A stretch of 64,000 nucleotides of DNA from Candidatus Meridianibacter frigidus. Lineage in GTDB: Bacteria > Vulcanimicrobiota > Vulcanimicrobiia > Vulcanimicrobiales > Vulcanimicrobiaceae. The translations under genes were made by a program, and so were the position numbers. The stretch covers positions 62,001 through 126,000 of the forward strand of contig QHBJ01000025.1 in assembly GCA_003243975.1 (NCBI GenBank), in the 5' to 3' direction. Below are positions 4,646 through 20,414 of the stretch, in pieces; the first letter of the stretch is position 1, and each line of letters starts with the position of its first letter. The notes below the pieces were generated by a model that searched no databases, was not told the DNA's origin, and saw only the letters and a program-made list of their open reading frames with translations.

Positions 4646-6010
4646 ATGCCGTACTATCCGCATACCGAGCGTGACATCGAGCAAATGCTAGCCGTCGTCG
4701 GCGTGGCGTCGCTTCAGGAGTTGCTCAAGGTTCCCGAAGCGGTCGCACTTCGCGAGGAATTGGACGTCGTTCCAGCGCTGCCGGAAACCGAGATCGGGAA
4801 ACGATTCGACGAGTTCGCATCCAAAAACCGCGCCGCCCAAGCAATTTCGTTCTTAGGAGCGGGCGCCTATCGTCACTACTGTCCGCCGGCGATCATGACT
4901 CTGGCAATGCGCGGTGAGTTCTTAACCGCGTACACGCCCTACCAAGCCGAGGTTTCTCAAGGGTACCTGCAAGCGATCTATGAGTGGCAGACCTATATCT
5001 GCCTGCTGACCGGATTGGATATCGCGAATGCGTCGGTCTACGATGGGGCCACCGCGCTGGCCGAAGCGGCAATTATGGCGCTCAACGCAAACGGTCGCAA
5101 GCGAATTCTCGTATCGCGCTGCATTCATCCGAACTATCGCGCGGTCCTCAAGACGTATTGCGACGGGCTCGATGTCGAAATTGACGAGCTTCCGGTAAGC
5201 ACCAACGGGGGCACCGACTTCGCGCAATGCGCCGAACTGATGGCACGCAAGGAGTACGCCGCGCTGGCGGTTCAGTCGCCGAACTTTTTTGGAAACCTCG
5301 ACGCTCCGGACGAAGCTGTGCGAGCGGAGGCCGAAGAATCGGGCACGATCCTCATCGGCGTGGTCGCCGAGGCGCTCTCACTGGCGGTCTTGCAGCCGCC
5401 CTCGAACTGGGGTGCCGAAATCGTCGCCGGAGAGGCGCAGTCCTTCGGCGTTGCGATGGCCTACGGCGGTCCGTATGTCGGTTTCATCGCATCCAAGAAC
5501 GCTCATCTGCGGCGCATTCCCGGACGGCTGGTCGGCCGCACGGTGGACAAGCACGGTAAAGAAGCATACGTTCTGACGCTCCAAGCGCGCGAACAACACA
5601 TTCGCCGCGAGCGAGCCACTTCAAACATCTGCACTAACCAGGCGCACTGCGCGCTCATCGCGACCATTTATCTGGCCCTCTTGGGACGCGCGGGCCTGCA
5701 GGACTGCGCGACGGAGAACTTGCGCCGCTCCCGCGAGCTGGCGACCAAAGTCTCCAGCATGACGGGCTGTACGCTAAAATTCGATGCGCCTTTCTTCAAC
5801 GAGTTTGTCGTCGACGTACACACCGATGCGGTCCCGGTTCTCGCTCGCCTACAAAAGGAAAACATTCTGGCAGGCGTCGCGCTCGGGCGCTTCTACGCCG
5901 AATACTCGAACTGCATCTTGATGGCGGCAACCGAACTTACTTCGAGCGCGGATATCGATGCGCTCTGCGATGCCCTTAAAGAGGCCCTGCATGTCGCAGC
6001 TCGCGTCTGA
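4646..6010 (+). CDS. gcvPA: Glycine dehydrogenase (decarboxylating) subunit 1
   Basis: This is the N-terminal half of a split P protein. It forms a heterodimer with GcvPB, decarboxylates glycine and passes the aminomethyl group to GcvH. FLGAGAYRHYCPP near residue 70, TAYTPYQAEVSQG and VYDGATALAEA are typical of GcvPA, and 454 residues is the usual length. It starts nine bases after gcvH with an ATG preceded by GGAG-like bases (GCCGGAG). The 3' end overlaps the start of gcvPB by 20 bp. The split arrangement is the one found in Gram-positive bacteria, Thermotoga, Thermus and many candidate phyla. Confidence 0.97.
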   Translation: MPYYPHTERDIEQMLAVVGVASLQELLKVPEAVALREELDVVPALPETEIGKRFDEFASKNRAAQAISFLGAGAYRHYCPPAIMTLAMRGEFLTAYTPYQAEVSQGYLQAIYEWQTYICLLTGLDIANASVYDGATALAEAAIMALNANGRKRILVSRCIHPNYRAVLKTYCDGLDVEIDELPVSTNGGTDFAQCAELMARKEYAALAVQSPNFFGNLDAPDEAVRAEAEESGTILIGVVAEALSLAVLQPPSNWGAEIVAGEAQSFGVAMAYGGPYVGFIASKNAHLRRIPGRLVGRTVDKHGKEAYVLTLQAREQHIRRERATSNICTNQAHCALIATIYLALLGRAGLQDCATENLRRSRELATKVSSMTGCTLKFDAPFFNEFVVDVHTDAVPVLARLQKENILAGVALGRFYAEYSNCILMAATELTSSADIDALCDALKEALHVAARV

Positions 6011-7490
6011 GATGGGGACGCCGCTGATCTTCGAGCAGGGTCAAAACGGTCGCGCGAACCGGTACTTTGCGCGCGCAGAGAGCGCGGCAGATTACTTGCC
6101 GGCGGAAGTTCTGCGCGATGACCTGATGTTGCCGGAGAACACGGAACTCGATGTCGTGCGCCACTACACACGCCTGTCGCAGCGCACGTTCGGCATCGAT
6201 CTGGGCTTCTATCCTCTGGGCTCGTGCACGATGAAGTATAATCCGCGTATCAACGATGCCGTGGCCAACCTGCCCGGATTGCGCGACCTGCATCCGTTCG
6301 CGCCCGACGAAATGGCGCAGGGTGCATTGCAAATCATGTACGAGCTGGAACGCAGTTTGGCATCGCTGTTCGGTATGGCCGCGTTCTCACTCAATCCGGC
6401 CGCTGGCGCGCACGCGGAGCTGGCGGCGCTGCTTGTCGCGAAGAAGTATTTTCGCGAACGGGGCGAGAGTGGACGCAATACGGTGATCGTGCCCGACACC
6501 GCGCATGGTACGAATCCGGCTTCGGCGGCGATGTGCGGTTTTCGTGTGATTTCGCTGCGCAGCGACGAACGCGGCCGCGTCGGGCTGGATGAACTTGAGA
6601 AAGTCCTCGGACCCGAAACCGCCGTCTGCATGATGACCAATCCTAACACGCTTGGCCTCTTTGAAGATCACATCGTGGAGATTGCCAAGTCCGTCCACGA
6701 CGCCGGCGGTTTGATGTACTACGATGGCGCCAACGCCAACGCGCTGATGGGCAATGCACGACCGGGCGACATGGGATTCGATTTGATGCACCTCAACACG
6801 CACAAGACCTTTACGATTCCGCACGGCGGCGGCGGCGCGGGCCACGGCCCCCTTGGGGTTGCCGCGCATCTGACCGATTACTTACCGATCCCCGTGGTTC
6901 GGGCGAGCAAGATGCCGAACGGCAAGCCTACCAAATTCGTCAGCGACGGCCTCACGTTTTCGTTGGATTTCGATCTTCCAAAGTCCATCGGGCCGATGCG
7001 TTCGTTCTGGTCGAACTTCGCGCATGCGGTGCGCGCGCTGGCATATATGTATGCGAACGGCGCGCAGGGGCTCAAGCGGGTGTCCGAACTGGCGGTTCTC
7101 AACGCAAACTACCTGCGGGTGAAGATTGCGCCGTTTCTCGAGACGCCGTACCCGGAAATCTGTCGCCACGAGTTCGTCGCATCTGCACAAAAGTTGAAGA
7201 AAGAAACGGGCGTGCGCGCGCTCGACATCGCCAAGGCTCTTTTAGACCGCGGCTATATGGCGCCCACCATGTACTTCCCGCTGCTCGTTCCGGAGTGCCT
7301 GATGATCGAGCCAACCGAGACTGAGAGCAAAGAGACCCTTGACGGATTTGTGGAGAGCCTGCGCGAGATCGTGGAGACAGCGCGCCGGGATCCGAAGCAG
7401 ATTTTGGATGCTCCCACCAAGACCGTGGTCGGGCGCATCGATGAAACTCGGGCGGCGCGCCAGCCGGACCTCCGATGGCAGTCCCATTGA
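5991..7490 (+). CDS. gcvPB: Glycine dehydrogenase (decarboxylating) subunit 2
   Basis: This is the PLP-bearing half of the split P protein. HLNTHKTFTIPHGGGG contains the Schiff-base lysine at residue 272 counted from the ATG at 5991. GLGAGPLGV-like and PTMYFPL segments toward the end are also family features. The start at 5991 (MSQLASEMG) has AAAGAGG a few bases upstream and overlaps gcvPA by 20 bp; an ATG at 5958 would add 11 atypical residues. The gene ends the glycine cleavage operon. It is followed by a 113-bp gap carrying a -10-like TATAAT and a GC hairpin before the nudix gene. Confidence 0.97.
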   Translation: MSQLASEMGTPLIFEQGQNGRANRYFARAESAADYLPAEVLRDDLMLPENTELDVVRHYTRLSQRTFGIDLGFYPLGSCTMKYNPRINDAVANLPGLRDLHPFAPDEMAQGALQIMYELERSLASLFGMAAFSLNPAAGAHAELAALLVAKKYFRERGESGRNTVIVPDTAHGTNPASAAMCGFRVISLRSDERGRVGLDELEKVLGPETAVCMMTNPNTLGLFEDHIVEIAKSVHDAGGLMYYDGANANALMGNARPGDMGFDLMHLNTHKTFTIPHGGGGAGHGPLGVAAHLTDYLPIPVVRASKMPNGKPTKFVSDGLTFSLDFDLPKSIGPMRSFWSNFAHAVRALAYMYANGAQGLKRVSELAVLNANYLRVKIAPFLETPYPEICRHEFVASAQKLKKETGVRALDIAKALLDRGYMAPTMYFPLLVPECLMIEPTETESKETLDGFVESLREIVETARRDPKQILDAPTKTVVGRIDETRAARQPDLRWQSH

Positions 7491-7603: not shown

Positions 7604-8083
7604 ATGCGAATCAAATACGAGGTTTCGGCCGGCGGGCTCGTGCTGCGGCGGCGTGAGTCAACTTATGACGCGCTGCTGATCGGGCGGTGTACGCCGCGCA
7701 TTTGGTCGCTCCCCAAGGGCCACGTGGAAGCCAAGGAATCCAAGGAGCAGGCCGCGCTCCGGGAAGTTCGGGAAGAGACCGGCTGCTGGGGCGAGATCAT
7801 CACCAAGCTCTCCGATATCTCTTACTGGTTCTACATTCACGGCGCCAAGCACAAGAAGTCCGTGACCTTCTACCTCATGCGCTATCTATCGGGCGATACG
7901 GCCAACCACGATCACGAGGTGGACGAGGCCCAGTGGCTCGACATCATGGCCGCCAAGCGCAACCTGAAATACGTAAACGAAAAGCGCCTGGTGGATCTAG
8001 CCCTGGATTATTTGGTCGCCAACCCGGGCGCCTTCGGTGACCTGCCTTTGATCGCGAGAACCGCCGAGCAAAAGACCAGTTGA
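7604..8083 (+). CDS. Nudix hydrolase
   Basis: Nudix enzymes hydrolyse nucleoside diphosphates linked to another group. The box GX5EX7REUXEEXGU is complete at residues 39-61, beginning GHVEAKE and ending REVREETG. The protein is 159 aa, a single compact domain. The pattern PKGHVE resembles diadenosine polyphosphate hydrolases of the ApaH/MutT-like group, but the substrate is not fixed by sequence. Its TGA overlaps the TTG start of scpA, so the two are translationally coupled. It opens the run nudix-scpA-scpB-nfo-dinB. Confidence 0.93.
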   Translation: MRIKYEVSAGGLVLRRRESTYDALLIGRCTPRIWSLPKGHVEAKESKEQAALREVREETGCWGEIITKLSDISYWFYIHGAKHKKSVTFYLMRYLSGDTANHDHEVDEAQWLDIMAAKRNLKYVNEKRLVDLALDYLVANPGAFGDLPLIARTAEQKTS

Positions 8084-8826
8084 TCCTTAGCGACCTTTCG
8101 CTGCAAGAGCCGGGCTGTCGCGTCTCGCTCGAGATTTTTGACGGCCCGCTTAATCTTCTGCTGAATCTGGTTCGCGAAAGGCAACTGGACATCGCGACGG
8201 TGCCTCTGGCAACGGTCGCCGAGCAATACTTCGAATACGTTTCGCTCATGGAAACGCTCGACGTTGAGCTTGCGGCCGAATACCTTGTTATCGCGGCTAC
8301 CTTGGTATTTCTGAAATCCAAATCGCTCTTGCCGCCCGTCCCCGCCGAGTTTGAAGATGCAGGCGAGTCGGCGGAAGAGGTAGAGGAGCGCCTGCGCGCC
8401 CGCCTCATTGCGTATTCGAAGTATCGCGAGATCGGCGAAGATTTGCGCAACCGTCAACTGGAAGCCGGCTCGTTCTACTACCGCGATGCCGGTGATCCGG
8501 CGAGCGAACTGGTGCAGCGCTATCGCATCGAGGCGAGCCGCTTGAGCGTGGCTTTTTTGATGATGCTGCGCAACGCAAAACCCGAGCGCCGCACGATTGC
8601 ACGCGAGCGCATCTCCCTGATCGCGCAGATGGACTACATCATGAGGAAGGTGCGCGAAGCGGGCGAGGTCTACTTTTCGGCCTTATGCCACGAATTGGGG
8701 CGCGAATCGATCATCGTAACTTTTTTGGCGATTCTAGAATTGATCCGGCGGCGCCGCGTGGGTTTCGAGCAGCCCGACAACTTTGAAGACATTTGCCTGT
8801 TTGCGATGTCGCGCCGGGAAAGCTAA
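8080..8826 (+). CDS. scpA: Segregation and condensation protein A (kleisin)
   Basis: ScpA is the kleisin that links Smc head domains and binds ScpB in the bacterial condensin complex on the nucleoid. The N-terminal FDGPLNLLLNLVRERQLDI and the AAEYLVIAATLVFLKSKSLLP segment (about residues 65-86) are diagnostic, and the C-terminal winged-helix part ends near FEDICLF. At 248 aa it is of normal size. The TTG start overlaps the nudix stop (TTGA). scpB begins immediately after the TAA stop, so equal synthesis of the two partners is expected. smc itself is not in the window. Confidence 0.95.
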   Translation: MILSDLSLQEPGCRVSLEIFDGPLNLLLNLVRERQLDIATVPLATVAEQYFEYVSLMETLDVELAAEYLVIAATLVFLKSKSLLPPVPAEFEDAGESAEEVEERLRARLIAYSKYREIGEDLRNRQLEAGSFYYRDAGDPASELVQRYRIEASRLSVAFLMMLRNAKPERRTIARERISLIAQMDYIMRKVREAGEVYFSALCHELGRESIIVTFLAILELIRRRRVGFEQPDNFEDICLFAMSRRES

Positions 8827-9426
8827 GTGATAACGCAAGAGATCGCTTCGCAATCGCAGGATGAAGCCGTAGCACGCTTGCGGCGACCGATTGAGGCGTT
8901 GCTCTTCGTGGCTAGCGAGCCGCTTTCGATCAAGACGCTTGCCAAGCTTACGCATGGCAGCGAGATCGAAGTCGCGGCCACGCTGCAGCGGATCGAAGCC
9001 GATTTTGCGGAGCGCGGCATGGTTCTGCGAGAGATCGGGGGCGGCTATCGCTTTGCAAGTGCGCCTATTGCGCGCGACATCGTGGAAGCGTATCTCTTGC
9101 CGCCGCGCAGCAACCTCTCGATGCCCGCCTTGGAGAGCTTGGCGATTATCGCCTATCTGCAGCCTGTCACTAAGAGTGAGATCGAGGCCATTCGGGGCGT
9201 TTCCGCCGAGAGCGTGGTTGCGACGCTGCTGGATCGCCGCCTTATTGCCGAAGCCGGACGTAAAGATGTTGTGGGTCATCCGATTCTATACAAGACGACC
9301 GCCGAATTCTTGGAGTCGTTCGGCCTGCGTTCACTGGAAGATTTGCCGCCGATGGAGTTGGAAGCCGGCCAGCCCCTGGAGTTGGAATTACTTACCGCTG
9401 CGGTAACGAGTAGAACTCCTCCGTAA
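8827..9426 (+). CDS. scpB: Segregation and condensation protein B
   Basis: ScpB forms a dimer of tandem winged-helix domains and bridges ScpA in the Smc condensin. Characteristic stretches are PIEALLFVASEPLSIKTLAKL near residue 20, ESLAIIAYLQPVTKSEIEAIRGV near 98-120 and GHPILYKTT near 143. The GTG start abuts the scpA stop. Its TAA shares bases with the ATG of nfo (TAATG), so translation probably continues from one gene to the next. Confidence 0.95.
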   Translation: MITQEIASQSQDEAVARLRRPIEALLFVASEPLSIKTLAKLTHGSEIEVAATLQRIEADFAERGMVLREIGGGYRFASAPIARDIVEAYLLPPRSNLSMPALESLAIIAYLQPVTKSEIEAIRGVSAESVVATLLDRRLIAEAGRKDVVGHPILYKTTAEFLESFGLRSLEDLPPMELEAGQPLELELLTAAVTSRTPP

Positions 9427-10283
9427 TGCGGCTGGGCATGCACGTTCGCACCGCACGCGGATATGCGGCCGCCTTGGAACGCGCCCAGCGTGCCGGATGC
9501 AACGCCGTGCAGATTTTCTCCAGCAATCCGCGTTCGTATCGCGTGGCGCCGCTCGATCAGCCGGCCCTTGCCACATTTCGAACCGCGCGCCAAACCGCAG
9601 GGCTGTATCCGGCGGTGATCCACACGTCGTACTTGATCAATTTGGCAAGCGACGATCCAAAGATCATCGCCGGCTCGTTGGGTTTGGTGCGCGGGGATCT
9701 GGCGTTCGCGGCTGCGAGCGGAATCGAGTTCGTCAATACGCATTTGGGCTCGTATGGAAAACGTTCTCGCGAGCAGGGCTTCGGCGACGCCTGCCGCGCT
9801 CTGGACAAGGCGTTGGAAGATATCGCGCCCGGGGTTGTTTTGGTGTTGGAGAACTCGGCGGGCGCCGGTCAGCTATGCGGCGGCACGCTCGAAGAACTCG
9901 GCCGTTTCATCAAGTCAGTGGACCATCCGCAACTAGGCGTATGCATTGATACCGCACACGCGTGGGCCGCCGGATACGAAATCAACTCTCAGCGGGGAGT
10001 CGATGCGTTTCTGTATGAAGCTGCCGAACAGATCGGCTTGGACCGCATTCACCTCTTTCATTTCAACGACACGCAAGTGCCGCTCGGAGGTAACCGCGAC
10101 CGCCATTGGCACATCGGGGAAGGCAACATCGGCTTCGCCGGCTTTCGGGCGCTTGCGGCGCGATCGGAGCTCGCAAGCAAGGCTGCCATTCTGGAAACAC
10201 CGGGAGAAGATGAAGACGACGTTCGCAACATGCAGACGATCCGGCTTATCTTCGAAGGGGCCTCGGCGCCGACGCGCGCGTGA
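9426..10283 (+). CDS. nfo: Endonuclease IV (AP endonuclease)
   Basis: Nfo cuts DNA 5' to abasic sites in base excision repair using three zinc ions in a TIM barrel. The protein starts RLGMHVRTARG. Expected metal ligands are visible in NTHLGSYG, VLENSAG, CIDTAHAWAAGYE, HLFHFNDTQ, DRHWHIGEGNIG and the final ETPG. At 285 aa it is full-length. It shares bases with the scpB stop and its own TGA overlaps the GTG start of dinB. Location between scpB and a translesion polymerase points to a repair sub-operon. Confidence 0.96.
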   Translation: MRLGMHVRTARGYAAALERAQRAGCNAVQIFSSNPRSYRVAPLDQPALATFRTARQTAGLYPAVIHTSYLINLASDDPKIIAGSLGLVRGDLAFAAASGIEFVNTHLGSYGKRSREQGFGDACRALDKALEDIAPGVVLVLENSAGAGQLCGGTLEELGRFIKSVDHPQLGVCIDTAHAWAAGYEINSQRGVDAFLYEAAEQIGLDRIHLFHFNDTQVPLGGNRDRHWHIGEGNIGFAGFRALAARSELASKAAILETPGEDEDDVRNMQTIRLIFEGASAPTRA

Positions 10284-11323
10284 TCGCGCACTTCGATATC
10301 GATGCGTTTTACGCTAGCGTCGCAATCCGCGATAACCCGGAGTTGCGCGGCAAGCCCGTTGCGATTGCAGGCAGCAGTCGCCGTGCTGTTGTGCTCACGG
10401 CGTCGTACGAAGCGCGCCCTTTTGGCGTGCGTTCCGCAATGCCGCTCTATCGGGCGCTTCAGGCCTGCCCGCAGCTCGTCGTCGTCAAGCCAGATCACCT
10501 CAAGTATCGAGAGCTCTCCAAAGCGGTTTTCGAGATCTTTGGCCGCGGTGGACGCGTGGTTGAAGGTCTCTCACTTGACGAAGCGTTCGTGGATTTTGGC
10601 GAGCGCAGCGTTGAAACGGCGACCACGCTCGCGCAAGAAATTCGCTCGGAGATTGCAGAGACGGTCGGCCTGACGGTTAGCGCCGGCGTATCCGCGGCCA
10701 AAATGGTGGCGAAAATCGCCTCGGATCTCTGCAAGCCCAACGGCCTGCGTGTGGTTGCGCCGGGTGAAGAAGCAAACTTCCTCGCGCCGCTGCCCGTGAG
10801 CCGTTTATGGGGAATCGGTCCAAAGACCGTTCCGCGGCTGCATGCGCGCGGGATAGAAACGATCGGCGACCTGGCGGAGCTTGACGATGTCAAGTTGCGC
10901 TCGATTTTCGGCAGCTCGGGAAGCGAGATGCGCGATCTTGCGCGCGGCAAGGACGACCGCCTCGTGGAACCCGAGCGCAAAACCAAATCTATTTCGACAG
11001 AGGAAACTTTTGAGTACGACGTGACGGAGGAGTACGAATTGCTGGATCTGTTACGCGAGCAAGCACGCGAACTCTCTGCCAGTCTCGAACACGAAGGGCT
11101 CTACGCGGGCACCATCGGCGTGAAGATTAAACGCGCGGATTTCTCACTGCTTGGCCGTCAAACACACCTCGCGCAGCCAACCCGGGAAGCCAAGCGCATC
11201 CTCGAAGCCAGCGCGCATTGCCTATCGCGCGCGGAATTGCACGGAGCACCGGTTCGTCTGCTAGGGACCCGTTGCGCGTCGCTGGTTTTTGAGGCGCCTC
11301 TCCAAACAACACTTTTCGAATAG
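10280..11323 (+). CDS. dinB: DNA polymerase IV (Y-family translesion polymerase)
   Basis: DinB is an error-prone polymerase that copies past damaged bases. AHFDIDAFYASV supplies the first catalytic acids and EGLSLDEAFVDF the second pair. GLTVSAGVSAAKMVAKIAS and LWGIGPKT follow in the usual order, then the little-finger domain. The C-terminal QTTLF (residues 342-346) fits the beta-clamp binding motif Q-x-x-L-F. The start is a GTG that overlaps the nfo stop. It converges on the GNAT gene with a nine-base gap. No SOS box was identified, so damage regulation is not shown. Confidence 0.95.
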   Translation: MIAHFDIDAFYASVAIRDNPELRGKPVAIAGSSRRAVVLTASYEARPFGVRSAMPLYRALQACPQLVVVKPDHLKYRELSKAVFEIFGRGGRVVEGLSLDEAFVDFGERSVETATTLAQEIRSEIAETVGLTVSAGVSAAKMVAKIASDLCKPNGLRVVAPGEEANFLAPLPVSRLWGIGPKTVPRLHARGIETIGDLAELDDVKLRSIFGSSGSEMRDLARGKDDRLVEPERKTKSISTEETFEYDVTEEYELLDLLREQARELSASLEHEGLYAGTIGVKIKRADFSLLGRQTHLAQPTREAKRILEASAHCLSRAELHGAPVRLLGTRCASLVFEAPLQTTLFE

Positions 11324-11332
11324 CAGACTCCG

Positions 11333-12295
11333 CTACACGTGGTCCGTGGCCCAAAGCGGATCGGCCTTCGAGGTAGCCGCGGTCTGCGACACAAGTGTAC
11401 GACCAATTAAACTCAGGCCGGCGGCCATGAAGATGGCAGTTTTTCGCTTGCGAACCGAAACAGCAGGGAGGACTTCGCGTGCACCCGAGGGTGGCAGCCA
11501 ACCAGTAATGCGCCGCAAATCTCCGGCCGCCGCGAGCAACAGTGACGGCACGAGCTCCGCTGTCGCTTCGTCGAGGAATCCAAATTCGTCCAGCGTGTAC
11601 GCGTCGTCGCGCACGTCCCGCGTCCCCAGAACGTAGGCGACGACCTTCCCGCCGCGCCGAAGAAGCAGATTCGCGGCCCTTGTGGTCCCGAGCTTGTCGA
11701 AGGAGCGTTCCCACCTAGCGCGCACGCGGTTCCAAAGCGCTGCGTCGCGCTCCAAGGACCATGGTTGCAGGTGCGAAAGCGCATCGTAGCACCGGCGCAC
11801 TCCAGGCCAATCCCTTGGAGACAGCGCTTCAACGCGCACGCGCGGCGCCTTTACCGCGCTCGCTCGCAAGGAGAATGCGCGCGAAGCCAGCTCGATGAAT
11901 CCGAGGTCGGCATAAAACTCCGGGCGAATATCGGAAAAAAGAAATGCGAGATCATTGCCCGCCGTGCGCGCTTCGTCCAGCAACATCGCCAGCATGGCGG
12001 TGGCATAGCCATGGCCCCGCAACGGTGCGGCTGTAAAGACAGCCCCGATGCCGATCGCGCGCAAGCGTCGCTCGCCAAAAGTGATTCTTCGCTCGTAACG
12101 CTTGCAGCTCGCAAGCAACTCTCGCCGTTCGAAGAGGCCGACGGTGCGGTAAGAGCGGCGGCCATATACAGAATGGGCAATTGCCAACGTTTGTTCGACA
12201 TACTGATCGAACGTGCGCCCCCCGCTCCAAAGCGCCGCCGTGTGGGGAAGAACGGCTAGCGCATATGCCTCGGGCGAGATGGCTCGCAACTCCAT
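11333..12295 (-). CDS. GNAT-family N-acetyltransferase, two-domain
   Basis: An acetyl-CoA-dependent acetyltransferase of the GNAT fold. Residues about 80-110 carry the acetyl-CoA pyrophosphate motif, IGIGAVFTAAPLRGHGYATA, followed by a helix. The 320-residue length and a second region after about residue 150 resemble Eis-like enzymes with two GNAT lobes. The substrate is unknown. The ATG lies two bases beyond the helicase stop (TAGGATG), so it is translationally coupled to the helicase and nuclease genes upstream. Whether it works with them is not evident. Confidence 0.8.
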   Translation of the reverse strand: MELRAISPEAYALAVLPHTAALWSGGRTFDQYVEQTLAIAHSVYGRRSYRTVGLFERRELLASCKRYERRITFGERRLRAIGIGAVFTAAPLRGHGYATAMLAMLLDEARTAGNDLAFLFSDIRPEFYADLGFIELASRAFSLRASAVKAPRVRVEALSPRDWPGVRRCYDALSHLQPWSLERDAALWNRVRARWERSFDKLGTTRAANLLLRRGGKVVAYVLGTRDVRDDAYTLDEFGFLDEATAELVPSLLLAAAGDLRRITGWLPPSGAREVLPAVSVRKRKTAIFMAAGLSLIGRTLVSQTAATSKADPLWATDHV

Positions 12296-12296
12296 C

Positions 12297-14411
12297 CTAT
12301 TGAGCGCGCCAAACGGCGTTGCTTGGATTCCAGCGGTCGGAGATATCGACGATGCCCGGTATGCGCGCAGCCTGCAACTCGGTCAGGAACTCCGGCGCCG
12401 CAACGCCGCGCGTGGGACGCTCGCTGGCGGTTACTACACACGACTTGCGCGTACGCCGCATTCCGTAGACGAACGCCCGGCGTTCCTCCTGATTGTAGAG
12501 ATCGCGCGTCTTCGCGCGAAACATGTAGTAGCTAAATTTAGCAGTCCGCGCGGCGCGGGCGTCCCCCACATTCTCCTTGGCAATCATTCCCAAGCTGGGA
12601 CTAAAAAGGAACGCGTCCGGGACGTAGTAACGCGGGAACGATCCAGCCCGTACGTTCGGAAGCATAACATGGTCGAATTCGGCGCCGCGCGCGGCGTCTA
12701 TGCTTAGAATGCGCACGCAGTTATCGTCGTCTTGTGCTTCGCAGGCCTCCAGGTTCGTGTTCATGCGGGCACTCACGTACTCCAGGAAATCGCCGAGCGT
12801 TGCGTCTTGGTGTTGCTGCCCGTAGAGTTCGATGCGGTGAACGAGACGGCCGAGGTATCGAAGTTGCGAGGTCGCTCGCGCGGTTTCCGGGTCGCCGACG
12901 CGTGCCAAACCCTCGGAGAAGATCTTTCGGGCCAGTCCAGCTAGCCCGTACCTCTTGCGGTCTTCCTTCCATTGCTCGAGCAAGACGCGGAAGCCGACGA
13001 TGCGGTCGCGCGCCTGCGGCGTCAAATTCGATCCGTGTTCCACACGCATCACGTTCCAACCCAGGCGCACGTCGCGACGCCGATCCCAACGGCCACGCGG
13101 CTCGCTCTCAATCTCTTCGAAGAGCACTCCCTGTGCGTTTTCGGGTTCGGCGCACAAAGCCACGAGCGTCGCATCGGAGAGACCGAGAAGCCGCCCAGAT
13201 AACGTTCGCAGCAACCAGTCGTGAGCAAAGGGATCGTAAACGTTCCACAAAAGCGCGAGCGCATCCAGGACGTCCGGAACCGTGAACAGATTGAGATCTC
13301 CAGCGACTTGCACGTCCACGTTTCGCGCCCAGAGCGCCTCTTCGTACGCGCGGATGTTCTGAACCGACCGAAAGAGTAGCGCGATGCTCCGCGGGTCCGC
13401 ACCGTCCTTGAGGAAATCCACCACCTGTTCCGCGATGAACGCCTCCTCCGCGCGCGGCGTCGTCGCGCGAAAGAGTGTAAGCTGCCCGCTTTCGAGCCCC
13501 GTGGCCGGCGGTTCGTTTCCAAGCAAGTGGCGCGCCGCCCGCTCGATCATCAGCGGAACGCGGTGTTGTTCCGTGCAGACCTCACGTTGTGCGGCGACGG
13601 CGAAAACGCGATCGGGGCGGGCACCCTCGAAGGTGCCGGTCGCTGACTGCGAATCGCCCGCCAGGACGACGCCGTCGAGCTTTTCTCCATAGAGCGCTTG
13701 CAGCAACCGCAGTCCACCTGCGGTTAGCTCTTGTGCGTCATCCAGGAAGAAGCTCGGAAACTTCGCGCGCGCCGCGGCCAAGGTTCCCGCGCTTCTAAGC
13801 ATTTCGGCCGCTTCCACAATCGCATCGGTTCCGGTTAGACATCCGCGCTCGACCAGCAACTCCAAATACGAGCGGTACAGTCGCTCCAAAATCTTCGCAA
13901 GGTCCACCTCGCGGCGGTACTGGCGCTGCAGTTCGGATGCATCGACGTCAAGCGAGTTGCGGTACGCATCCTTGGTGCTGTAAAGCAGGTCCGGATGCGC
14001 GAGATTGGGCGGGCGCGCATAAAAGCCCGCGGCGCCTTTCAAAGCGAGATCCAGGAAGGAGGACGGCGTGATGCCGGCGTCGTGCAGTTTGCGAATTAAT
14101 CTGAACGCCGCTTCCAGAAACCGCTGTGGCATCCGCAATCCCGGCACCTCGGGGTCAATGCGCGAATCGATGAGATCGGCCCACTCCATTTTGAACAAGG
14201 GCTCCGCTGCGCGCTCAAAGAGAGCCGAGGCATCGACTTCGTCGATCAGTTCGCGCTGTCCGTCGGTTGCAAAGCCGCGAAGCAAATCGAACGCAAAGCG
14301 CTCGAACGTTCCGTCGGCCGTACGGTAGACGATCTGGCCCGTACGCGCCGCTACCTCGCGCAGCCGAGTGCTCTTACCGCAGCCAGCCATTCCGGAAATC
14401 AAGCGCATCAT
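12297..14411 (-). CDS. UvrD/AddB-like superfamily 1 helicase
   Basis: An SF1 helicase of 704 aa. SGMAGCGKST at residues 6-15 is the Walker A motif, and FFLDDAQELT at 221-230 is a variant Walker B/DEAQ box. VVLAGDSQSATGTF is motif III, ILSIDAARGAEFDHV is motif V, and EERRAFVYGMRRTRKS is motif VI with its arginine finger. The ultra-short N-terminus before the P-loop is like AddB. The ATG overlaps the stop of the PD-(D/E)XK nuclease gene by four bases. Together the two ORFs total 1124 residues, close to one AddB, which suggests a split, order-reversed AddB/AdnA-type recombination helicase-nuclease. No AddA-like partner is in view. Confidence 0.88.
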   Translation of the reverse strand: MMRLISGMAGCGKSTRLREVAARTGQIVYRTADGTFERFAFDLLRGFATDGQRELIDEVDASALFERAAEPLFKMEWADLIDSRIDPEVPGLRMPQRFLEAAFRLIRKLHDAGITPSSFLDLALKGAAGFYARPPNLAHPDLLYSTKDAYRNSLDVDASELQRQYRREVDLAKILERLYRSYLELLVERGCLTGTDAIVEAAEMLRSAGTLAAARAKFPSFFLDDAQELTAGGLRLLQALYGEKLDGVVLAGDSQSATGTFEGARPDRVFAVAAQREVCTEQHRVPLMIERAARHLLGNEPPATGLESGQLTLFRATTPRAEEAFIAEQVVDFLKDGADPRSIALLFRSVQNIRAYEEALWARNVDVQVAGDLNLFTVPDVLDALALLWNVYDPFAHDWLLRTLSGRLLGLSDATLVALCAEPENAQGVLFEEIESEPRGRWDRRRDVRLGWNVMRVEHGSNLTPQARDRIVGFRVLLEQWKEDRKRYGLAGLARKIFSEGLARVGDPETARATSQLRYLGRLVHRIELYGQQHQDATLGDFLEYVSARMNTNLEACEAQDDDNCVRILSIDAARGAEFDHVMLPNVRAGSFPRYYVPDAFLFSPSLGMIAKENVGDARAARTAKFSYYMFRAKTRDLYNQEERRAFVYGMRRTRKSCVVTASERPTRGVAAPEFLTELQAARIPGIVDISDRWNPSNAVWRAQ

Positions 14412-15670
14412 CGCGCGAAGCGCATTTCCGGCGGAATCGGACGAGCGTTACACGCAAGTGCGTATGCGCAATATTGGCAGGCGGCTGCATCGTCCGTGAC
14501 TGCAAAATGATCCAAAAGCCCGTCCGTTAGTTCGCGGCAGATTTCTACCATGCGCGTACGCGCGCGTTCGAGATCGGAAATCGAGATCGTGCCCGTCGTG
14601 GCTTGCGAACGTTCGGCTTCATTTCGAGGCACCGGAACAACCTCCAGCGAAATCGGCGCGACATCCAACGAGGCGTCCTTAAGCGGCACGAGCGCCAAGC
14701 GCGAAACGCGGTCGCCCTGCGCCGTGCGCGCCCAGTAGTAAAAGGGCAGCTGAAACTCTTTGAACGCGCGCACTTTCTCCCGGTACTCAACGGCGCTGCG
14801 GGCGATCGCACCTGTCTTGTAGTCGATGACGGTCACGCCGCCGGTGGTTTCGTCCAGATCGACACGGTCGATGTAGCCGATGAATTCAAAACCTTCCAAG
14901 GTCAATTCGGCCGGCAGCTCGCATCCGATCACGGTAAAGGGCGCGCTGGCGGCTTGTTCGGCTAACCAGTTTACGTACCGTATCGCCGTACGCTGCGCGC
15001 GGCGTTTTTGAAGTTCGCGCTCGATCGGAGTTTCGAAGGAGGGTCCGTAGCGGTCGAATGCGCTGTTGATGAATGCTTGCAGTTTGGTGCGCAAGGTTTG
15101 CGCGGAAACCTCTCCGGGGCGCGGAAACTCGCCATGCAATTCTTCCAGAGCGCTGTGGAATGCCGAGCCGTAGTACGAAGCCGCCGAGCCTTTGTCTTCG
15201 ACGGCCGCGCACAGGTAGCGATAGAACCACTTTCGCCGGCACTCGACGTATGTGTTTAGTGATGAAGCGCTAAAGTGTTCCTTACGCGCGTGCAGGCCAA
15301 CCGCCACTTCCGGCACGGCCGCTGCCTGCAGGTTAATCGGCGGCTCCTCGGCCGCGGCTGGAGCGGCTTCCGGCAGGTTGAATGCACGGACGATATGTTG
15401 CTCGGTATGGGAAGGGTCAAGGCCGCCGAGTGCGCGCGCGAACGCCAGCGCGGCAGTGCGGTCTGCCGCCGGGAAGGCGACGCGCTCCTTCGAAATCGCT
15501 GCCAGCGGTGATTCGCCGGGCTCTGCCGCGCGCAGAATTGCGAGCGCGGCCGCCTGTGAAACCCCCGAATACGGCGAACGCAAAAGACGCTCGGCATCCT
15601 GCGAACGTTGTTGCCGTGCGTAGGAAAGCGCGGCAGAGATAAAGGCACGCAGTTCGCCGGAAGGTCGCAC
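14408..15670 (-). CDS. PD-(D/E)XK nuclease with Fe-S cysteines, AddB/RecB-like
   Basis: The protein has 420 residues. From about 135 to the end it is a RecB-type nuclease: GSAFHSALEE (His172), GYIDRVD (Asp268) and VIDYKTG (Asp283, Lys285) form the catalytic core. Cys144 plus the C-x2-C-x5-C at 398-407 match the 4Fe-4S cysteine arrangement of AddB and Cas4. The first 100 residues contain ERLLRSPYSGVS, a phrase typical of the helicase region just before the nuclease in AddB-like proteins. This supports origin as part of a longer helicase-nuclease. It is the first gene of the minus-strand nuclease-helicase-GNAT operon. Confidence 0.88.
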   Translation of the reverse strand: MRPSGELRAFISAALSYARQQRSQDAERLLRSPYSGVSQAAALAILRAAEPGESPLAAISKERVAFPAADRTAALAFARALGGLDPSHTEQHIVRAFNLPEAAPAAAEEPPINLQAAAVPEVAVGLHARKEHFSASSLNTYVECRRKWFYRYLCAAVEDKGSAASYYGSAFHSALEELHGEFPRPGEVSAQTLRTKLQAFINSAFDRYGPSFETPIERELQKRRAQRTAIRYVNWLAEQAASAPFTVIGCELPAELTLEGFEFIGYIDRVDLDETTGGVTVIDYKTGAIARSAVEYREKVRAFKEFQLPFYYWARTAQGDRVSRLALVPLKDASLDVAPISLEVVPVPRNEAERSQATTGTISISDLERARTRMVEICRELTDGLLDHFAVTDDAAACQYCAYALACNARPIPPEMRFAR

Positions 15671-15720
15671 GCGGCTTCATTCTGCAGGGAAACCGCTTGG
15701 TCCGGCGCTAATCGCGCAAG

Positions 15721-16293
15721 ATGCGGCGAATCATTGTTGGGATCAGCGGCGCAAGCGGCAGCGTCTACGGCTATGCGGCTCTGCAAGCTTTGCAAGCGGC
15801 CCCGGATTTGGAATCCCATCTTGTATTAAGCATGCAAGCCCGGCGTACCATCGAGCTGGAAACGCCTTTTTCCGTAGCGGATTTTGAAGCGCTCGCCGAT
15901 GTGGTGCACTCCGACGGCGATCTGGCGGCTTCACCCTCCAGCGGGTCGTTCATCACCGAGGGAATGATCATCATCCCCTGCTCGGTCCGCAGCGCTTCAG
16001 CCATCGCACACTCCCTGGGCAGCAACCTGCTCGTGCGTGCGGCCGATGTCTGCTTGAAAGAAAAAAGAAAACTGGTGCTGGTCGTGCGTGAAACGCCACT
16101 CCATCTGGGCCACTTGAGAACGCTCACGCAGCTGGCGGAGATGGGCGCCGTTATTCTGCCGCCGGTTCCCGCAATGTATGCCAAGCCCAAGAGCGTGGAC
16201 GACATTGTCGCGCATACCGTCGGCAAAGCGCTCGATCAGTTTGGTGTTGAACACCGGCTCTTCGCGCGCTGGAAGACCCCAATCGAGTCCTAG
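15721..16293 (+). CDS. ubiX: Flavin prenyltransferase, UbiX family
   Basis: UbiX joins a dimethylallyl group to FMN to make the prenylated flavin used by UbiD-type decarboxylases. The N-terminal IVGISGASGSVYGY is the flavin-phosphate loop. IIIPCSVRSASAIAHS and RETPLHLGHLRTLTQLAEMGA are conserved, and 190 aa is normal. No ubiD gene lies in the window, so the partner must be elsewhere. The upstream gap of about 50 bp also serves as the start region of the divergent nuclease gene. Its TAG stop overlaps the stop of the opposing nucleotidyltransferase in a CTAG. Confidence 0.93.
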   Translation: MRRIIVGISGASGSVYGYAALQALQAAPDLESHLVLSMQARRTIELETPFSVADFEALADVVHSDGDLAASPSSGSFITEGMIIIPCSVRSASAIAHSLGSNLLVRAADVCLKEKRKLVLVVRETPLHLGHLRTLTQLAEMGAVILPPVPAMYAKPKSVDDIVAHTVGKALDQFGVEHRLFARWKTPIES

Positions 16294-17042
16294 ACCAGAG
16301 TCTCTGCCAGAGCGACATCGCTCGCCCGGTCCACATTGACCCCCAACTCGGGGTAGGGCGTGATGATGGCACGCACACGCGCGCCTAATACTTGGGAGGC
16401 CCGGTCTTCTGCTTCTGCGATGCTCAGGCGGCGAAAGGCGAACTTCAACAAGGTGCGCCGCCCGAAGAGTGCCGCCAAACGCAGTGGATTCTTACGCGCC
16501 GCCCCCAGTCGTTCGATCACGGCGGCGAGCAGCGGGAAAACGCGCGGGCGGAGTGCCACAAAGCCGGTCCCGCAGTAGGTTCCTTCGCGCATGCGTGCCC
16601 ATGTGTGCGGCACTTGCGGAAAGCGCGCCTCGTGCACGGTGCGCTCCAGCGCCCCATACATTAGATCCGCATTGCAGCGCAGCGTATCGGCAACGAATGC
16701 TGCAGTCCCAGCGCCGCTTAGAACCGGTAAGTCTGAAGCGCTTACCAAAACGATGTCATCCGGGTTCAAACCCTCCAAGCCGCGCTCCAGCGAATCGCGA
16801 ATGCGCGCCCCGTCCGTCCGGCATTCATCGGCCAGCGCGAGCCCCGCGTCCGAATGTGTCCCCGAGGGGGCTACGACAATTATCTTGCCGATCGATTGCG
16901 ACGCGCGCAGCGCTTCCAGTGTACGCGTCACAAGCGCCTTGCCGCCGACGCGAACGAATGCCTTATTGGCTGCTCCGGGCTGCACCGCAGCAACTTCATC
17001 CGGCGCTCCGCCTGCCAATACCACCGCGGTTACGGCGCTCAC
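16290..17042 (-). CDS. MobA/IspD-like nucleotidyltransferase coupled to ispE
   Basis: A nucleotidyltransferase of the MobA-like NTP-transferase fold: AVVLAGGAPDEV at the N-terminus is the nucleotide-binding loop, NKAFVRVGGKALVTRTLEAL the following signature, and VSASDLPVLSG the metal-binding Asp region. It lacks the G-x-R-M-G of canonical IspD and MobA. The open frame continues far upstream, but the GTG at 17042 overlaps the ispE stop (GTGA) and starts SAVTAVVLAGG, so I take 250 aa as the true product. Coupling to ispE makes a role in isoprenoid synthesis (an IspD substitute) possible, but MobA-like or sugar-nucleotide activity is equally open. Confidence 0.8.
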   Translation of the reverse strand: MSAVTAVVLAGGAPDEVAAVQPGAANKAFVRVGGKALVTRTLEALRASQSIGKIIVVAPSGTHSDAGLALADECRTDGARIRDSLERGLEGLNPDDIVLVSASDLPVLSGAGTAAFVADTLRCNADLMYGALERTVHEARFPQVPHTWARMREGTYCGTGFVALRPRVFPLLAAVIERLGAARKNPLRLAALFGRRTLLKFAFRRLSIAEAEDRASQVLGARVRAIITPYPELGVNVDRASDVALAETLV

Positions 17043-17911
17043 GCGTTCGCCCACTGCGCGGCGCGGAGCAGCGGCGCCCTCAGGACGCGATGGCCCGGGG
17101 GCAATTGCAACCTCGTTGCCAGCGACTCGGCTGCCGCGCGATCCTCGCACAGCGCGAATACACAGGCGCCGGAGCCCGTGAGTGTTCCGGGCGTGCCCGC
17201 GTGTTCGAACGCAGCGAGCGCATGCGCGACTGCGGGGTACGCATCGGCGATTATGCTTTGAAAATCGTTGGAAAGAAGTGATGCCGCAGTCTTGAAATCG
17301 CCGCGTTGCACAGCTTCGCCCATGCGGATGCTTGCGGAGTTGGTTCGTTCGCGCGTGCGGTCCCCGCTTAGGTGGAGCCGGGCGTACGCCTGCGCGCTCG
17401 ATACGCGAACCGGTGGCACCAGAATGACGGCAAACCAAAGTGGGGGGTTTGCAAGGGCCGTCACGCGCTCGCCCGTTCCTTCGACCAACGCCGCGCCCTG
17501 CGTTAAGAAAAAGGGAACATCGGAGCCGAGGGCGCGTGCGATTGCCGGATAGTCGCAACCCTTAGTTGCCTTAATGCGCCCGGAGGCTGCCGCCAGCAGC
17601 ACGGCGGCCGCATCGCTGGAGCCGCCACCCAACCCCCCGCCCACAGGAATGTCTTTCCCCAAGAAAGCGTCGTAGCTTGCGCCAGCATCGATCGCACGCA
17701 GCGCTCGCTCGACGATGTTATCCTGCTCTAGCTCTTTCAAGTTGCAGCGGACCCGAACGCCGCTCGCGCCAGGCTCAAGGCGCAGTTCGTCGTGCAGGTC
17801 CAGCGGCACCATCACGCTGCGTAAGTTGTGGTGCCCCCCGCTTCCTTTGGAGAGAACTTCGAGCGTTAGATTCAATTTTGCCGGGGCGCGCAACGTTACG
17901 CTCGGTTCCAT
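17039..17911 (-). CDS. ispE: 4-diphosphocytidyl-2-C-methyl-D-erythritol kinase
   Basis: IspE phosphorylates CDP-methylerythritol in the MEP route to isoprenoids. It is a GHMP kinase: APAKLNLTLEV near the N-terminus, the ATP loop PVGGGLGGGSSDAAAVL, and LTGSGACVFAL near the C-terminus are all present. The ATG at 17911 (MEPSVTLRAPAKLNL) is taken as start. An upstream in-frame ATG would run into the divergent glycosidase gene. Its TGA overlaps the GTG of the nucleotidyltransferase. No other MEP gene is seen in the window. Confidence 0.94.
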   Translation of the reverse strand: MEPSVTLRAPAKLNLTLEVLSKGSGGHHNLRSVMVPLDLHDELRLEPGASGVRVRCNLKELEQDNIVERALRAIDAGASYDAFLGKDIPVGGGLGGGSSDAAAVLLAAASGRIKATKGCDYPAIARALGSDVPFFLTQGAALVEGTGERVTALANPPLWFAVILVPPVRVSSAQAYARLHLSGDRTRERTNSASIRMGEAVQRGDFKTAASLLSNDFQSIIADAYPAVAHALAAFEHAGTPGTLTGSGACVFALCEDRAAAESLATRLQLPPGHRVLRAPLLRAAQWANA

Positions 17912-17951
17912 CGGTGATTGCTGCGGCGCCGCCGCGCGGAGGGCCTGCGGA

Positions 17952-20414
17952 ATGCAAGGCGTAGAGGTGCGCATGGGTCCCGGCTACGACGCGCAGCGCA
18001 ACGAGTTCTGTGCCTACGTTCTCCCCGAAGCGCAGACGCCGTACGGGCTGCTCTTGGGGAACTATAAATCCTACGCGCAGTCGACGGCCAAGGGAGGCGT
18101 GCGCGGGCTTTGGGATGCCGACACCGATCAGATTATCTTCGGCACGCATCAAAGTGCGTACCGTTTGCGCGATTCCAATCAAACCTACTTCCCGCATCAA
18201 ATCTCCCGCGAGTTCACATTTCTTCCGTACGCACAAATATCCGAGTTTACGCTGGCAAACCGTCTCCACGTCACCGAAGCATTCTTCGTTCCGCACGGCC
18301 CCAAATACGATCGCGCGGTCGCTTTCGTGGTTGACGTTACGCTCTACAATCCCGGACGTGAATCGCTCGAAGTTTCGGCCTACCCCTGGGCGCTGCTGGT
18401 GGGCCAGCGCTTTTACGGCGAGCCGGAGCACGAAGTGCGCGCAACGGTGGACGGGCCTTTCATCACCTCGCGCAACGAACAGACCGGTGCGCAGCGTTGG
18501 TGGGGCGGATCACGCGAACCCAAAGCCGGCGTCGTGGCGGTGCGCGAACAAGTGCTTCTGCGCAACATGTCGCGGGGCGCGCTAAAGCCCGAAGAACATC
18601 TGGACGAGATTTCGCCGGCAATGGCCGAATGTGTCAGCCGCCGCATCTTCGGCGCCTTCGAGTACCGCATTGCCGTGGCACCGGGAGCGCGCGAAGCGCT
18701 GCGCATGGCGGTCGTCTTTCACAAAGATGGGGGCGAGCGGCCCAAAGCGCTGCTGTACGAGCTTCTGCACGACCCGAAAGCGCTGCACGATACACAGCGG
18801 TACTACGGAAACGCGCTCGCCGACGCGCGCTTCATGACGCCCTCCCCGGTGATAAGCCGTGGTGTCGTCTGGGCCAAGTGCAACATGCTGCGCGTGATTA
18901 AAGAGTATCCGCAGGGCTGGGGATCGACCAACTCGCCGCCCTCGGACATTCTCGTGTCACGCGACACGTCGTGGTTCGTGCACGGCTACGATTATTTTCT
19001 GCCGAAGTTCAGCCGCGATGCCATCGAACTTTTCAACCGGTTCGCCGACGAAAGCGGGCAGATGGTGGAGTACGTGCGCGGCGTCAACGGTTTCAAAACG
19101 TCGTACGACCTCAATATCAACGACGATACGCCCTTGCACTTGATCGCCATGCTGCATCACTACAATGCGACCCTGGACGAGGCGTGGGTGCGCGAATCTC
19201 AGCCGCTCATCATCAAGGTGGCCGACTATCTGCTCTCGCAGCGCGACGGCAACGGTTTGATATTCTGCAAGGCGGGCGGCGTCGACATGTTCGGGATCAG
19301 CTCGTGGCGTAACATCATTCCGTACTACACGCTAGACGGAGCCGTGACCGAAATAAACGCGGAAGCGGTCTTTGCGCTCGAGGCGGCGGCTATGCTTTGC
19401 GCGGTGGCCGGCGACAACGATCACTGGGAACGGTATTCCCGCGAAGCCCAAACCCTGCGTGAGAAGGTCATGCAGTTTCTCTTCAATGACGACACTGGCG
19501 CCTTCGTCCTCAATTACGATCAGGATCAAAACTATCAAGACAACTTTACGGCCGATGAAGTCTTCCCGGTTATGTTTGATGTGGCCGCCGGGGGACAGCG
19601 GCGTGCAATTCTCAAACGTCTGAGCGAAACCGACTTCGTAACGCCCGTCGGCTTGCGCACAATATCGACCGCGGACTCGTGGTATTTTCCGTCGCATGGC
19701 TTCGGGCTCTTGGGCGGTGTGTGGCCCGATCTGACGCTGTGGTTCGCTTTCGCCCTGGCGCGCAACGGCATGACGGACCCGGCGGTAAGCTGGCTTGAGG
19801 CCATCTACGAAGCGATGGAAGCGGGTAGTCCGCGTAATACGGTGCCCGGTGAATTCGGCGAGTGGTTTGACGGCGGTTCGCTGACCAATCGCGGCATGTA
19901 CCTCTCGCCGTGGACCGGTGCGAAGTATCTATGGGCCGTTGCAGAGACCGTAGGGGGGCTCGATGGATATCGCACAAGCGGGCGACCGCATCTCGTTCCC
20001 TTGGCGCCGAAGGGCTGGGAGTGGGTAGCGGGTGTGCGCGTGCACTGGGGCGGTCAGCGTTGCACGTATGTTATCGATCTTCGCAATCGTGTTGTGTATG
20101 GCAGCATGCCGGAGCTTTCGGCGGAAGAGCCGTATCGCTGCGTCTACGCAGGCCGCGACGTGAGCGATGAGGTGAGAACTTCGCCGGCCGACGTCGGCGC
20201 GGTGGCATTTGAAGATGAGATGGGTGCGGTGCGCTGTTTCCTGTGCAATCTCAACGACCGAATGCGCACGGCGAGCGTGGAGTTTCGAGACGTCAGCAAA
20301 CGCGTACGCTTGGCGCCCGGTGAGATGCTTCAGATTCATTTGGTCGGCGAGCCGTTCGAGCGCGAGGCCTCCGCGATGCAGCGCGACACCCCGAAACGTT
20401 TAGTTCCCGCCTAG
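17952..20414 (+). CDS. Six-hairpin (alpha/alpha-barrel) glycosidase, GDE/GH15-like
   Basis: A large cytoplasmic-looking carbohydrate enzyme of 820 aa with no signal peptide. The N-terminal 260 residues look like a beta-sandwich domain; the middle part (about 310-680) has features of an alpha/alpha six-hairpin glycosidase (DTSWFVHGYDYFLPKF, TPLHLIAMLHHY, DGAVTEINAEAVFALEAAAM, FTADEVFPVMFD, PGEFGEWFDGGSL). Related families include amylo-1,6-glucosidase, GH15 and cellobiose-phosphorylase-like proteins; I cannot assign one. The ATG at 17952 has GGAGGG at 17938-17943, eight bases upstream. A longer frame from 17715 lies inside antisense ispE and is rejected. Glycogen or trehalose handling is possible but unproven. 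Confidence 0.82.
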   Translation: MQGVEVRMGPGYDAQRNEFCAYVLPEAQTPYGLLLGNYKSYAQSTAKGGVRGLWDADTDQIIFGTHQSAYRLRDSNQTYFPHQISREFTFLPYAQISEFTLANRLHVTEAFFVPHGPKYDRAVAFVVDVTLYNPGRESLEVSAYPWALLVGQRFYGEPEHEVRATVDGPFITSRNEQTGAQRWWGGSREPKAGVVAVREQVLLRNMSRGALKPEEHLDEISPAMAECVSRRIFGAFEYRIAVAPGAREALRMAVVFHKDGGERPKALLYELLHDPKALHDTQRYYGNALADARFMTPSPVISRGVVWAKCNMLRVIKEYPQGWGSTNSPPSDILVSRDTSWFVHGYDYFLPKFSRDAIELFNRFADESGQMVEYVRGVNGFKTSYDLNINDDTPLHLIAMLHHYNATLDEAWVRESQPLIIKVADYLLSQRDGNGLIFCKAGGVDMFGISSWRNIIPYYTLDGAVTEINAEAVFALEAAAMLCAVAGDNDHWERYSREAQTLREKVMQFLFNDDTGAFVLNYDQDQNYQDNFTADEVFPVMFDVAAGGQRRAILKRLSETDFVTPVGLRTISTADSWYFPSHGFGLLGGVWPDLTLWFAFALARNGMTDPAVSWLEAIYEAMEAGSPRNTVPGEFGEWFDGGSLTNRGMYLSPWTGAKYLWAVAETVGGLDGYRTSGRPHLVPLAPKGWEWVAGVRVHWGGQRCTYVIDLRNRVVYGSMPELSAEEPYRCVYAGRDVSDEVRTSPADVGAVAFEDEMGAVRCFLCNLNDRMRTASVEFRDVSKRVRLAPGEMLQIHLVGEPFEREASAMQRDTPKRLVPA

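Follow-up and report, generated by a model that had tools for sequence, protein, structure and literature searches.

The window analysed here, 64,000 nucleotides of Candidatus Meridianibacter frigidus (contig QHBJ01000025.1, positions 62,001 to 126,000), carries two adjoining genes on its minus strand, which we call nuc and hel. We consider it likely, with a probability of roughly 0.7, that together they encode a reduced descendant of an AdnAB-type helicase-nuclease, passed on by vertical inheritance, nuc being an AdnA with an eroded motor and hel an AdnB without its nuclease domain. A sequence-only reading of this DNA had described a 420-residue PD-(D/E)XK nuclease overlapping a 704-residue superfamily 1 (SF1) helicase by four bases, and both open reading frames (ORFs) and the overlap were found as claimed. 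The nuclease chain (nuc; 14408..15670, minus strand; 420 amino acids (aa), GTG start) was assigned from its ORF, Pfam, alignments and profiles, and the motor chain (hel; 12297..14411, minus strand; 704 aa, ATG start) from its ORF, Pfam, profiles and fold. The stop codon of nuc and the start codon of hel share the ATGA at 14408..14411 (minus strand). An in-frame TGA lies three codons 5' of the GTG, and thus nuc of the window cannot extend further N-terminally.

Complete AdnAB-like pairs provided the reference for gene order. At four loci (L094 to L097), a frame of 983 to 1049 aa is followed by one of 1083 to 1127 aa with a start codon at -4 for the second gene, and the two loci scanned for domains (L094 and L097) carry motor and nuclease domains on both genes. 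The second gene of L094 best matched the solved AdnB structure 6ppu_B (E 1.5e-39). The first genes of L094 and L097 matched AdnA chains with E values of 4.5e-13 and 4.7e-17, respectively, and UvrD/PcrA chains scored higher for them. AdnA and AdnB of the actinobacterium Nonomuraea (L154) scored as expected on the local profiles, with 355.5 versus 236.6 bits and 362.4 versus 255.3 bits, respectively. Complete pairs in the window's own family (f1) have the nuclease-matching gene first and the same 4-base overlap; the nuc-hel order is therefore neither reversed nor permuted, contrary to the sequence-only reading. A -4 start codon for hel was available at 51 of the 59 nuc-hel loci (L035 and L072 are one locus, counted twice), with the start codons of relatives being inferred and the genomes mostly draft. 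At L054, a 443-aa repeat-rich, lipoprotein-like ORF (5220-6551, plus strand) separates nuc from hel; elsewhere the genes mostly overlap. AdnAB-like complete pairs exist outside Actinobacteria, mostly alongside the reduced pair and with frames of 968 to 1127 aa. First-gene frames of at least 950 aa occur in at least 7 of 99 f1 genomes and, in families f2 and f3, in at least 3 of 4 and at least 11 of 14 genomes.

We compared each chain with profiles of 12 AdnA-like and 10 AdnB-like rows using hhalign. The nuc profile matched the AdnA-like profile (E 2.1e-38, score 307) better than the AdnB-like one (4.6e-13, 112), and the hel profile matched the AdnB-like profile (7.4e-71, 588) better than the AdnA-like one (1.3e-49, 416). 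NCBIfam models stayed far below their cut-offs: the AddB models reached 31.9 and 29.1 bits on the pair (cut-offs 486.5 and 903.7), AddA 9 bits (707.65) and the RecB equivalog 21.2 bits (696.05). The AddB matches on nuc were weak (E 3.7e-8 and 2e-7), and hel had no AddB model match at E up to 1. The sequence-only reading was right to place the pair among AddAB/AdnAB-type enzymes. The model of the hel product had a predicted local distance difference test (pLDDT) score of 66.9 and is usable for fold class only; its VIA-align Z scores were 19.6 with AdnB (541 residues, 7.6 Å) and 19.0 with AddA, these two being tied, followed by PcrA (17.6), UvrD (17.0), AddB (13.3), RecC (13.0) and RecB (11.9). 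In the motor tree, hel grouped with AdnB-like motors with a Shimodaira-Hasegawa-like approximate likelihood ratio test (SH-aLRT) value of 88. An AddA partner had been said to be absent from the neighbourhood of the pair, but hel itself fills that role, its best matches being AdnB-like by profile and AdnB or AddA by VIA-align Z.

The N-terminus of nuc carries the remains of a further motor. The helicase-like phrase ERLLRSPYSGVS picked out there by the earlier reading is a real motor remnant, lying in a stub (residues 1-110; 15341..15670, minus strand) that corresponds to the 2A/2B junction. A profile of nuc residues 1-125 aligned with this junction of AdnA-like chains with a score of 36.7 (shuffle maximum 19.9, n = 100; reversed 14.4) and of AdnB-like chains with 37.0 (shuffle maximum 22.5, n = 100; reversed 15.0), beating all column shuffles, and scored at chance level against the hel alignment (17.3, reached by 6 of 100 shuffles). 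Residues 1-100 are helical in the nuc model, with pLDDT there mostly 76 to 89 in a model that is poor as a whole (55.2, 11-row alignment). Seven loci in genera g8, g19 and g29 (L047, L052, L054, L056 and L058 to L060) encode a nuc of 612 to 640 aa, whose extra N-terminus aligned with AdnA-like positions 130-175 (1A/1B) with a score of 38.8 (best of 60 shuffles 26.1), against 18.2 for AdnB-like chains, which 9 of 60 shuffles reached. A conserved region, DERrL...HVRaSaSFA, stands in this N-terminal part and aligns to AdnA 1A/1B. The motor pieces are collinear, with 1A/1B and 2A/2B followed by the nuclease; we took the names 1A, 1B, 2A and 2B for the aligned positions from the UvrD fold as we know it. 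Other lineages have nuclease-only chains of about 310 to 320 aa (e.g., L101 and L114). Judging by these alignments, the N-terminus of nuc is a second motor eroded in place, with a larger remnant in some genera and none in others. Such erosion argues against a simple fission of one AddB, since a complete motor is already present in hel and the nuc chains hold remnants of a second one (2A/2B in the window, 1A/1B at the seven loci).

The nuclease domain of nuc is well preserved. PF12705 (PDDEXK_1) matched residues 132-408 (14447..15277, minus strand; E 3.7e-36), a span also supported by the alignments, and had no match on hel. H172, D268, D283, K285, Q307 and four Cys residues are invariant (28 nuc rows; 33-row alignment; window numbering). 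Cys144 (15239..15241, minus strand) is the first Cys of the presumed iron-sulfur (Fe-S) site, and the remaining three form C398-x2-C401-x5-C407 (14450..14479, minus strand), with the spacing of the AdnA/AddB type. This C-terminal CxxCx5C spacing was present in 59/59 nuc, 13/13 AdnA-like and 2/2 AddB-like chains. Among AdnB-like chains, 10 of 11 showed CxxCx6C, the eleventh, Nonomuraea AdnB, being without the pattern. For the chain lengths and the Cys-spacing count, starts were set to fit the window chain, and the g8, g19 and g29 chains measure 390 to 459 aa there. Chains of 370 to 490 aa went into the nuc alignment (55 rows) and chains of 640 to 770 aa into the hel alignment (52 rows); those excluded by length were mostly contig-end fragments and nuclease-only chains. 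The chain sets do not include L036, L037 or L072, the last of which shares its contig with L035. The conserved residues suggest that the nuclease of nuc is intact, with nothing pointing to lost cutting, and that its four-Cys site would bind an Fe-S cluster.

The motor motifs of hel showed a different pattern of conservation. UvrD_C matched hel (E 1.7e-19), and the UvrD N-terminal match was borderline (Pfam). Motifs were called from 52 f1 rows aligned with E. coli UvrD. In the window (all on the minus strand), Walker A reads GMAGCGKS (14370..14393), motif II reads DDAQ instead of DExQ (13731..13742), motif III has lost its Gln (13614..13658), motif V, SIDAARGAEF, has lost its His and Lys (12672..12716), and motif VI has retained its Arg (12450..12485). 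The Walker A Lys, the motif II Asp and the motif IV Arg were present in 52/52 rows and the motif VI Arg in 51/52, the remaining row having a gap. The position of the motif II Glu was occupied by Asp in 41, Glu in 8 and Asn in 3 of these rows, while the motif III Gln was present in 6, the motif V His in 1 and the motif V Lys in 7. These patterns suggest that hel would still bind ATP, with hydrolysis or its coupling weakened. Since the ATP-binding residues stay but the catalytic motif II Glu is eroded, along with the residues for coupling in motifs III and V, the hel product probably works as a slow or ATP-gated motor and not as a fast, processive helicase.

The explanation that survives best beside a reduced AdnAB is a minimal but fully active AdnAB, in which hel, for all its unusual motifs, would unwind DNA 3'-5' rapidly and processively; we regard this as unlikely. 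The retained ATP-binding and Arg residues speak for it, as do the acidic residue (D or E) at the second position of motif II in 49 of 52 f1 chains and the exactly six f1 loci at which the Gln of motif III and the Lys of motif V persist together. However, Glu in motif II, Gln in motif III and Lys in motif V occurred together in 0/52 f1 and 0/12 f2/f3 chains (0/64), as opposed to 32/32 controls (13/13 AdnA-like, 11/11 AdnB-like and 8/8 PcrA), and hel of the window starts too late to include a Q motif.

We then examined where the pair occurs. The nuc alignment matched 122 of 149 genomes of the phylum: 95/99 in f1, 3/4 in f2, 14/14 in f3 and 10/32 of the others. One f2 genome (G090) and one f3 genome (G082) matched only via frames of 1066 and 1012 aa, respectively, and the frames listed for the other 32 genomes were of 834 to 1329 aa. 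In the f1 genomes without a nuc match, hel starts at a contig edge (G058), is partial (G126) or has no clear counterpart (G125 and G114). The neighbour order Nfo, DinB, GNAT, hel, nuc, UbiX, MobA, IspE (assigned by eye from the translated sequences) holds throughout f1 and also in f2, and the neighbours differ at the f3 loci in the same test. Window positions 7604-17974 hold chromosome-maintenance and repair genes (NUDIX, ScpA, ScpB, Nfo and DinB by eye), whose order is conserved in the relatives as fetched. Short-form pairs beyond the phylum were covered by a hel scan of genome contigs and by viral and plasmid scans. The first gave 11 loci, 8 titled Candidatus Eremiobacterota and 3 titled 'bacterium'; no viral contig scanned encoded a relative of the pair, and on the plasmids scanned hel was unmatched and nuc had two partial matches near 30% identity.

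This distribution bears on the idea of an anti-phage or other defence module akin to Gabija (GajAB), which likewise pairs a UvrD-like helicase with a nuclease. PADLOC models gave up to 48.1 bits for GajB on hel and 24.6 bits for Cas4 on nuc, scores that are of superfamily level. GajA is an OLD/TOPRIM nuclease, as opposed to the PD-(D/E)XK nuclease (PF12705) of nuc. With one syntenic, housekeeping-like place, flanked by repair and housekeeping genes, in nearly all genomes of the family, and with the viral and plasmid results above, we judge a defence role improbable. A decaying, near-neutral relic of AdnAB appears slightly more improbable still: motor erosion is progressive in both chains and some lineages keep nuclease-only chains, but the nuclease residues are invariant, an internal stop was found in only one nuc match (G121) among those listed, and most genomes of the family kept the nuc-hel pair, not AdnAB. 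Least probable of all, and very improbable, is the split, order-reversed AddB of the sequence-only reading, a single ancestral chain cut and rearranged: its claim that the two chains sum to one AddB stands as a matter of length only (1124 aa versus AddB models of 1159 and 1024 positions), and besides this the weak AddB matches of nuc, the nuclease gene coming first and the survival of an AddB-side (hel+AdnA) motor topology favour it, but complete AdnAB pairs show this very order and overlap, nuc still has parts of a motor of its own and hel is therefore not its missing half, and hel had no AddB model match at E up to 1 and a lower fold score with AddB than with AdnB (Z 13.3 versus 19.6).

Several observations weigh against the derivation from AdnAB, or at least against the assignment of the individual chains. 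By plain Foldseek E value, PcrA/UvrD chains rank level with or above AdnB for hel, with AddA alongside, and the poor nuc model had no Foldseek match at E ≤ 0.001. Some hel residues, namely the Gly of a G-x-FP stretch and the f1 motif V Phe, are AdnA-like rather than AdnB-like. The long nuc N-termini of f3 aligned only weakly to AdnA-like chains at the expected 2A/2B place (E 0.022), and because of these weak alignments f3 was not used as proof. In the approximately unbiased (AU) test, the hel+AdnA topology was not rejected (p-AU 0.286), and neither was nuc+AdnB (p-AU 0.408) nor nuc+AdnA (p-AU 0.212); the nuclease tree set nuc beside two long-branch AddB-like rows (81/16). The trees by themselves are compatible with either an AdnA or an AdnB ancestry of nuc and hel.

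The host genome (1.95 Mb, 96% complete) contains a single PF12705 gene, which is nuc; a full-length AddB elsewhere, named beforehand as evidence against the sequence-only reading, was not found. It has two UvrD_C genes, hel and a PcrA-like one (721-aa frame), and RecO and RecF above their cut-offs. Among 61 genomes of the family, only 6 (G006, G011, G019, G032, G046 and G055) had PF12705 above its cut-off in a frame of at least 980 aa, and therefore the pair is the only RecBCD/AddAB/AdnAB-type candidate that these models see in most of the family. On a Thermus oshimai plasmid (L155:2849-7581), a 746-aa hypothetical protein gene overlaps that of an 831-aa UvrD helicase by 4 bases; a Pfam scan placed a nuclease on neither chain, and this is possibly another reduced AddAB-like pair.

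Compared with known systems, the nuc-hel pair resembles AdnAB in its gene order, in the 4-base overlap found in the local complete pairs, in its chain-by-chain profile matches and in its AdnA-type Cys spacing. In AdnAB, each chain has a motor and a nuclease (PMC13309787), whereas nuc-hel has a single motor and a single nuclease, placed on separate chains (Pfam), and its motor lacks canonical SF1 residues. As in AddAB, the chain that bears the four-Cys PD-(D/E)XK nuclease also has a motor part that is non-functional, and the motor sits on the partner. AddA carries its own nuclease, unlike hel. Furthermore, nuc has a stub only, as opposed to the whole inactivated helicase fold that AddB retains and that reads Chi (PMC4824097). 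The inactivated helicase domains of both AddB and RecC are reported there as Chi scanners, and a motor fold can thus be retained for a use other than translocation. RecBCD belongs to the same superfamily and also combines a motor with a RecB-type nuclease, but no RecC- or RecD-like chain adjoins the pair, and its RecB-type nuclease is off the motor chain.

Under a reduced AdnAB, the nuc and hel products, translated from overlapping frames in ancestral order, would most likely associate 1:1, bind to DNA ends and process these by trimming or resection, for repair that depends on RecA. One strand would probably be threaded or clamped by the hel product and passed on to nuc; under ATP control, hel would most likely bind this strand and slowly move or clamp it while nuc trims, with coating of the resected DNA through RecFOR as the next step. 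Since nuc has lost the AdnA-side motor, it would be left with no Chi scanner of the AddB kind, and Chi control would be absent. More tentatively, and with somewhat less than even confidence, we propose that the superfamily of RecBCD, AddAB and AdnAB has a fourth architecture, found across a single bacterial class, in which a chain given over to the nuclease is joined by one given over to a non-processive motor, the motor gating the Fe-S nuclease via ATP binding or slow turnover. We found no account of the pair in the literature on AdnAB and AddAB among open-licence PubMed Central papers. The nuc and AdnA-like chains form a graded series, from full AdnA-like chains of about 1000 aa through those with 1A/1B and 2A/2B (about 610 to 640 aa) and those with a 2A/2B stub (about 420 aa) to nuclease-only chains (about 310 to 320 aa), which lets one ask to what extent a RecB-type nuclease depends on a motor and whether cutting can still be gated by a motor whose hydrolysis centre is eroded. 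RecBCD, AddAB and AdnAB are the accepted bacterial machines for break resection. If the fourth architecture is real, most of one family would manage double-strand break repair without any fast helicase-nuclease from this superfamily; and if the pair is the only such relative in most of the family, DNA ends there would be resected by a stripped-down, two-chain version.

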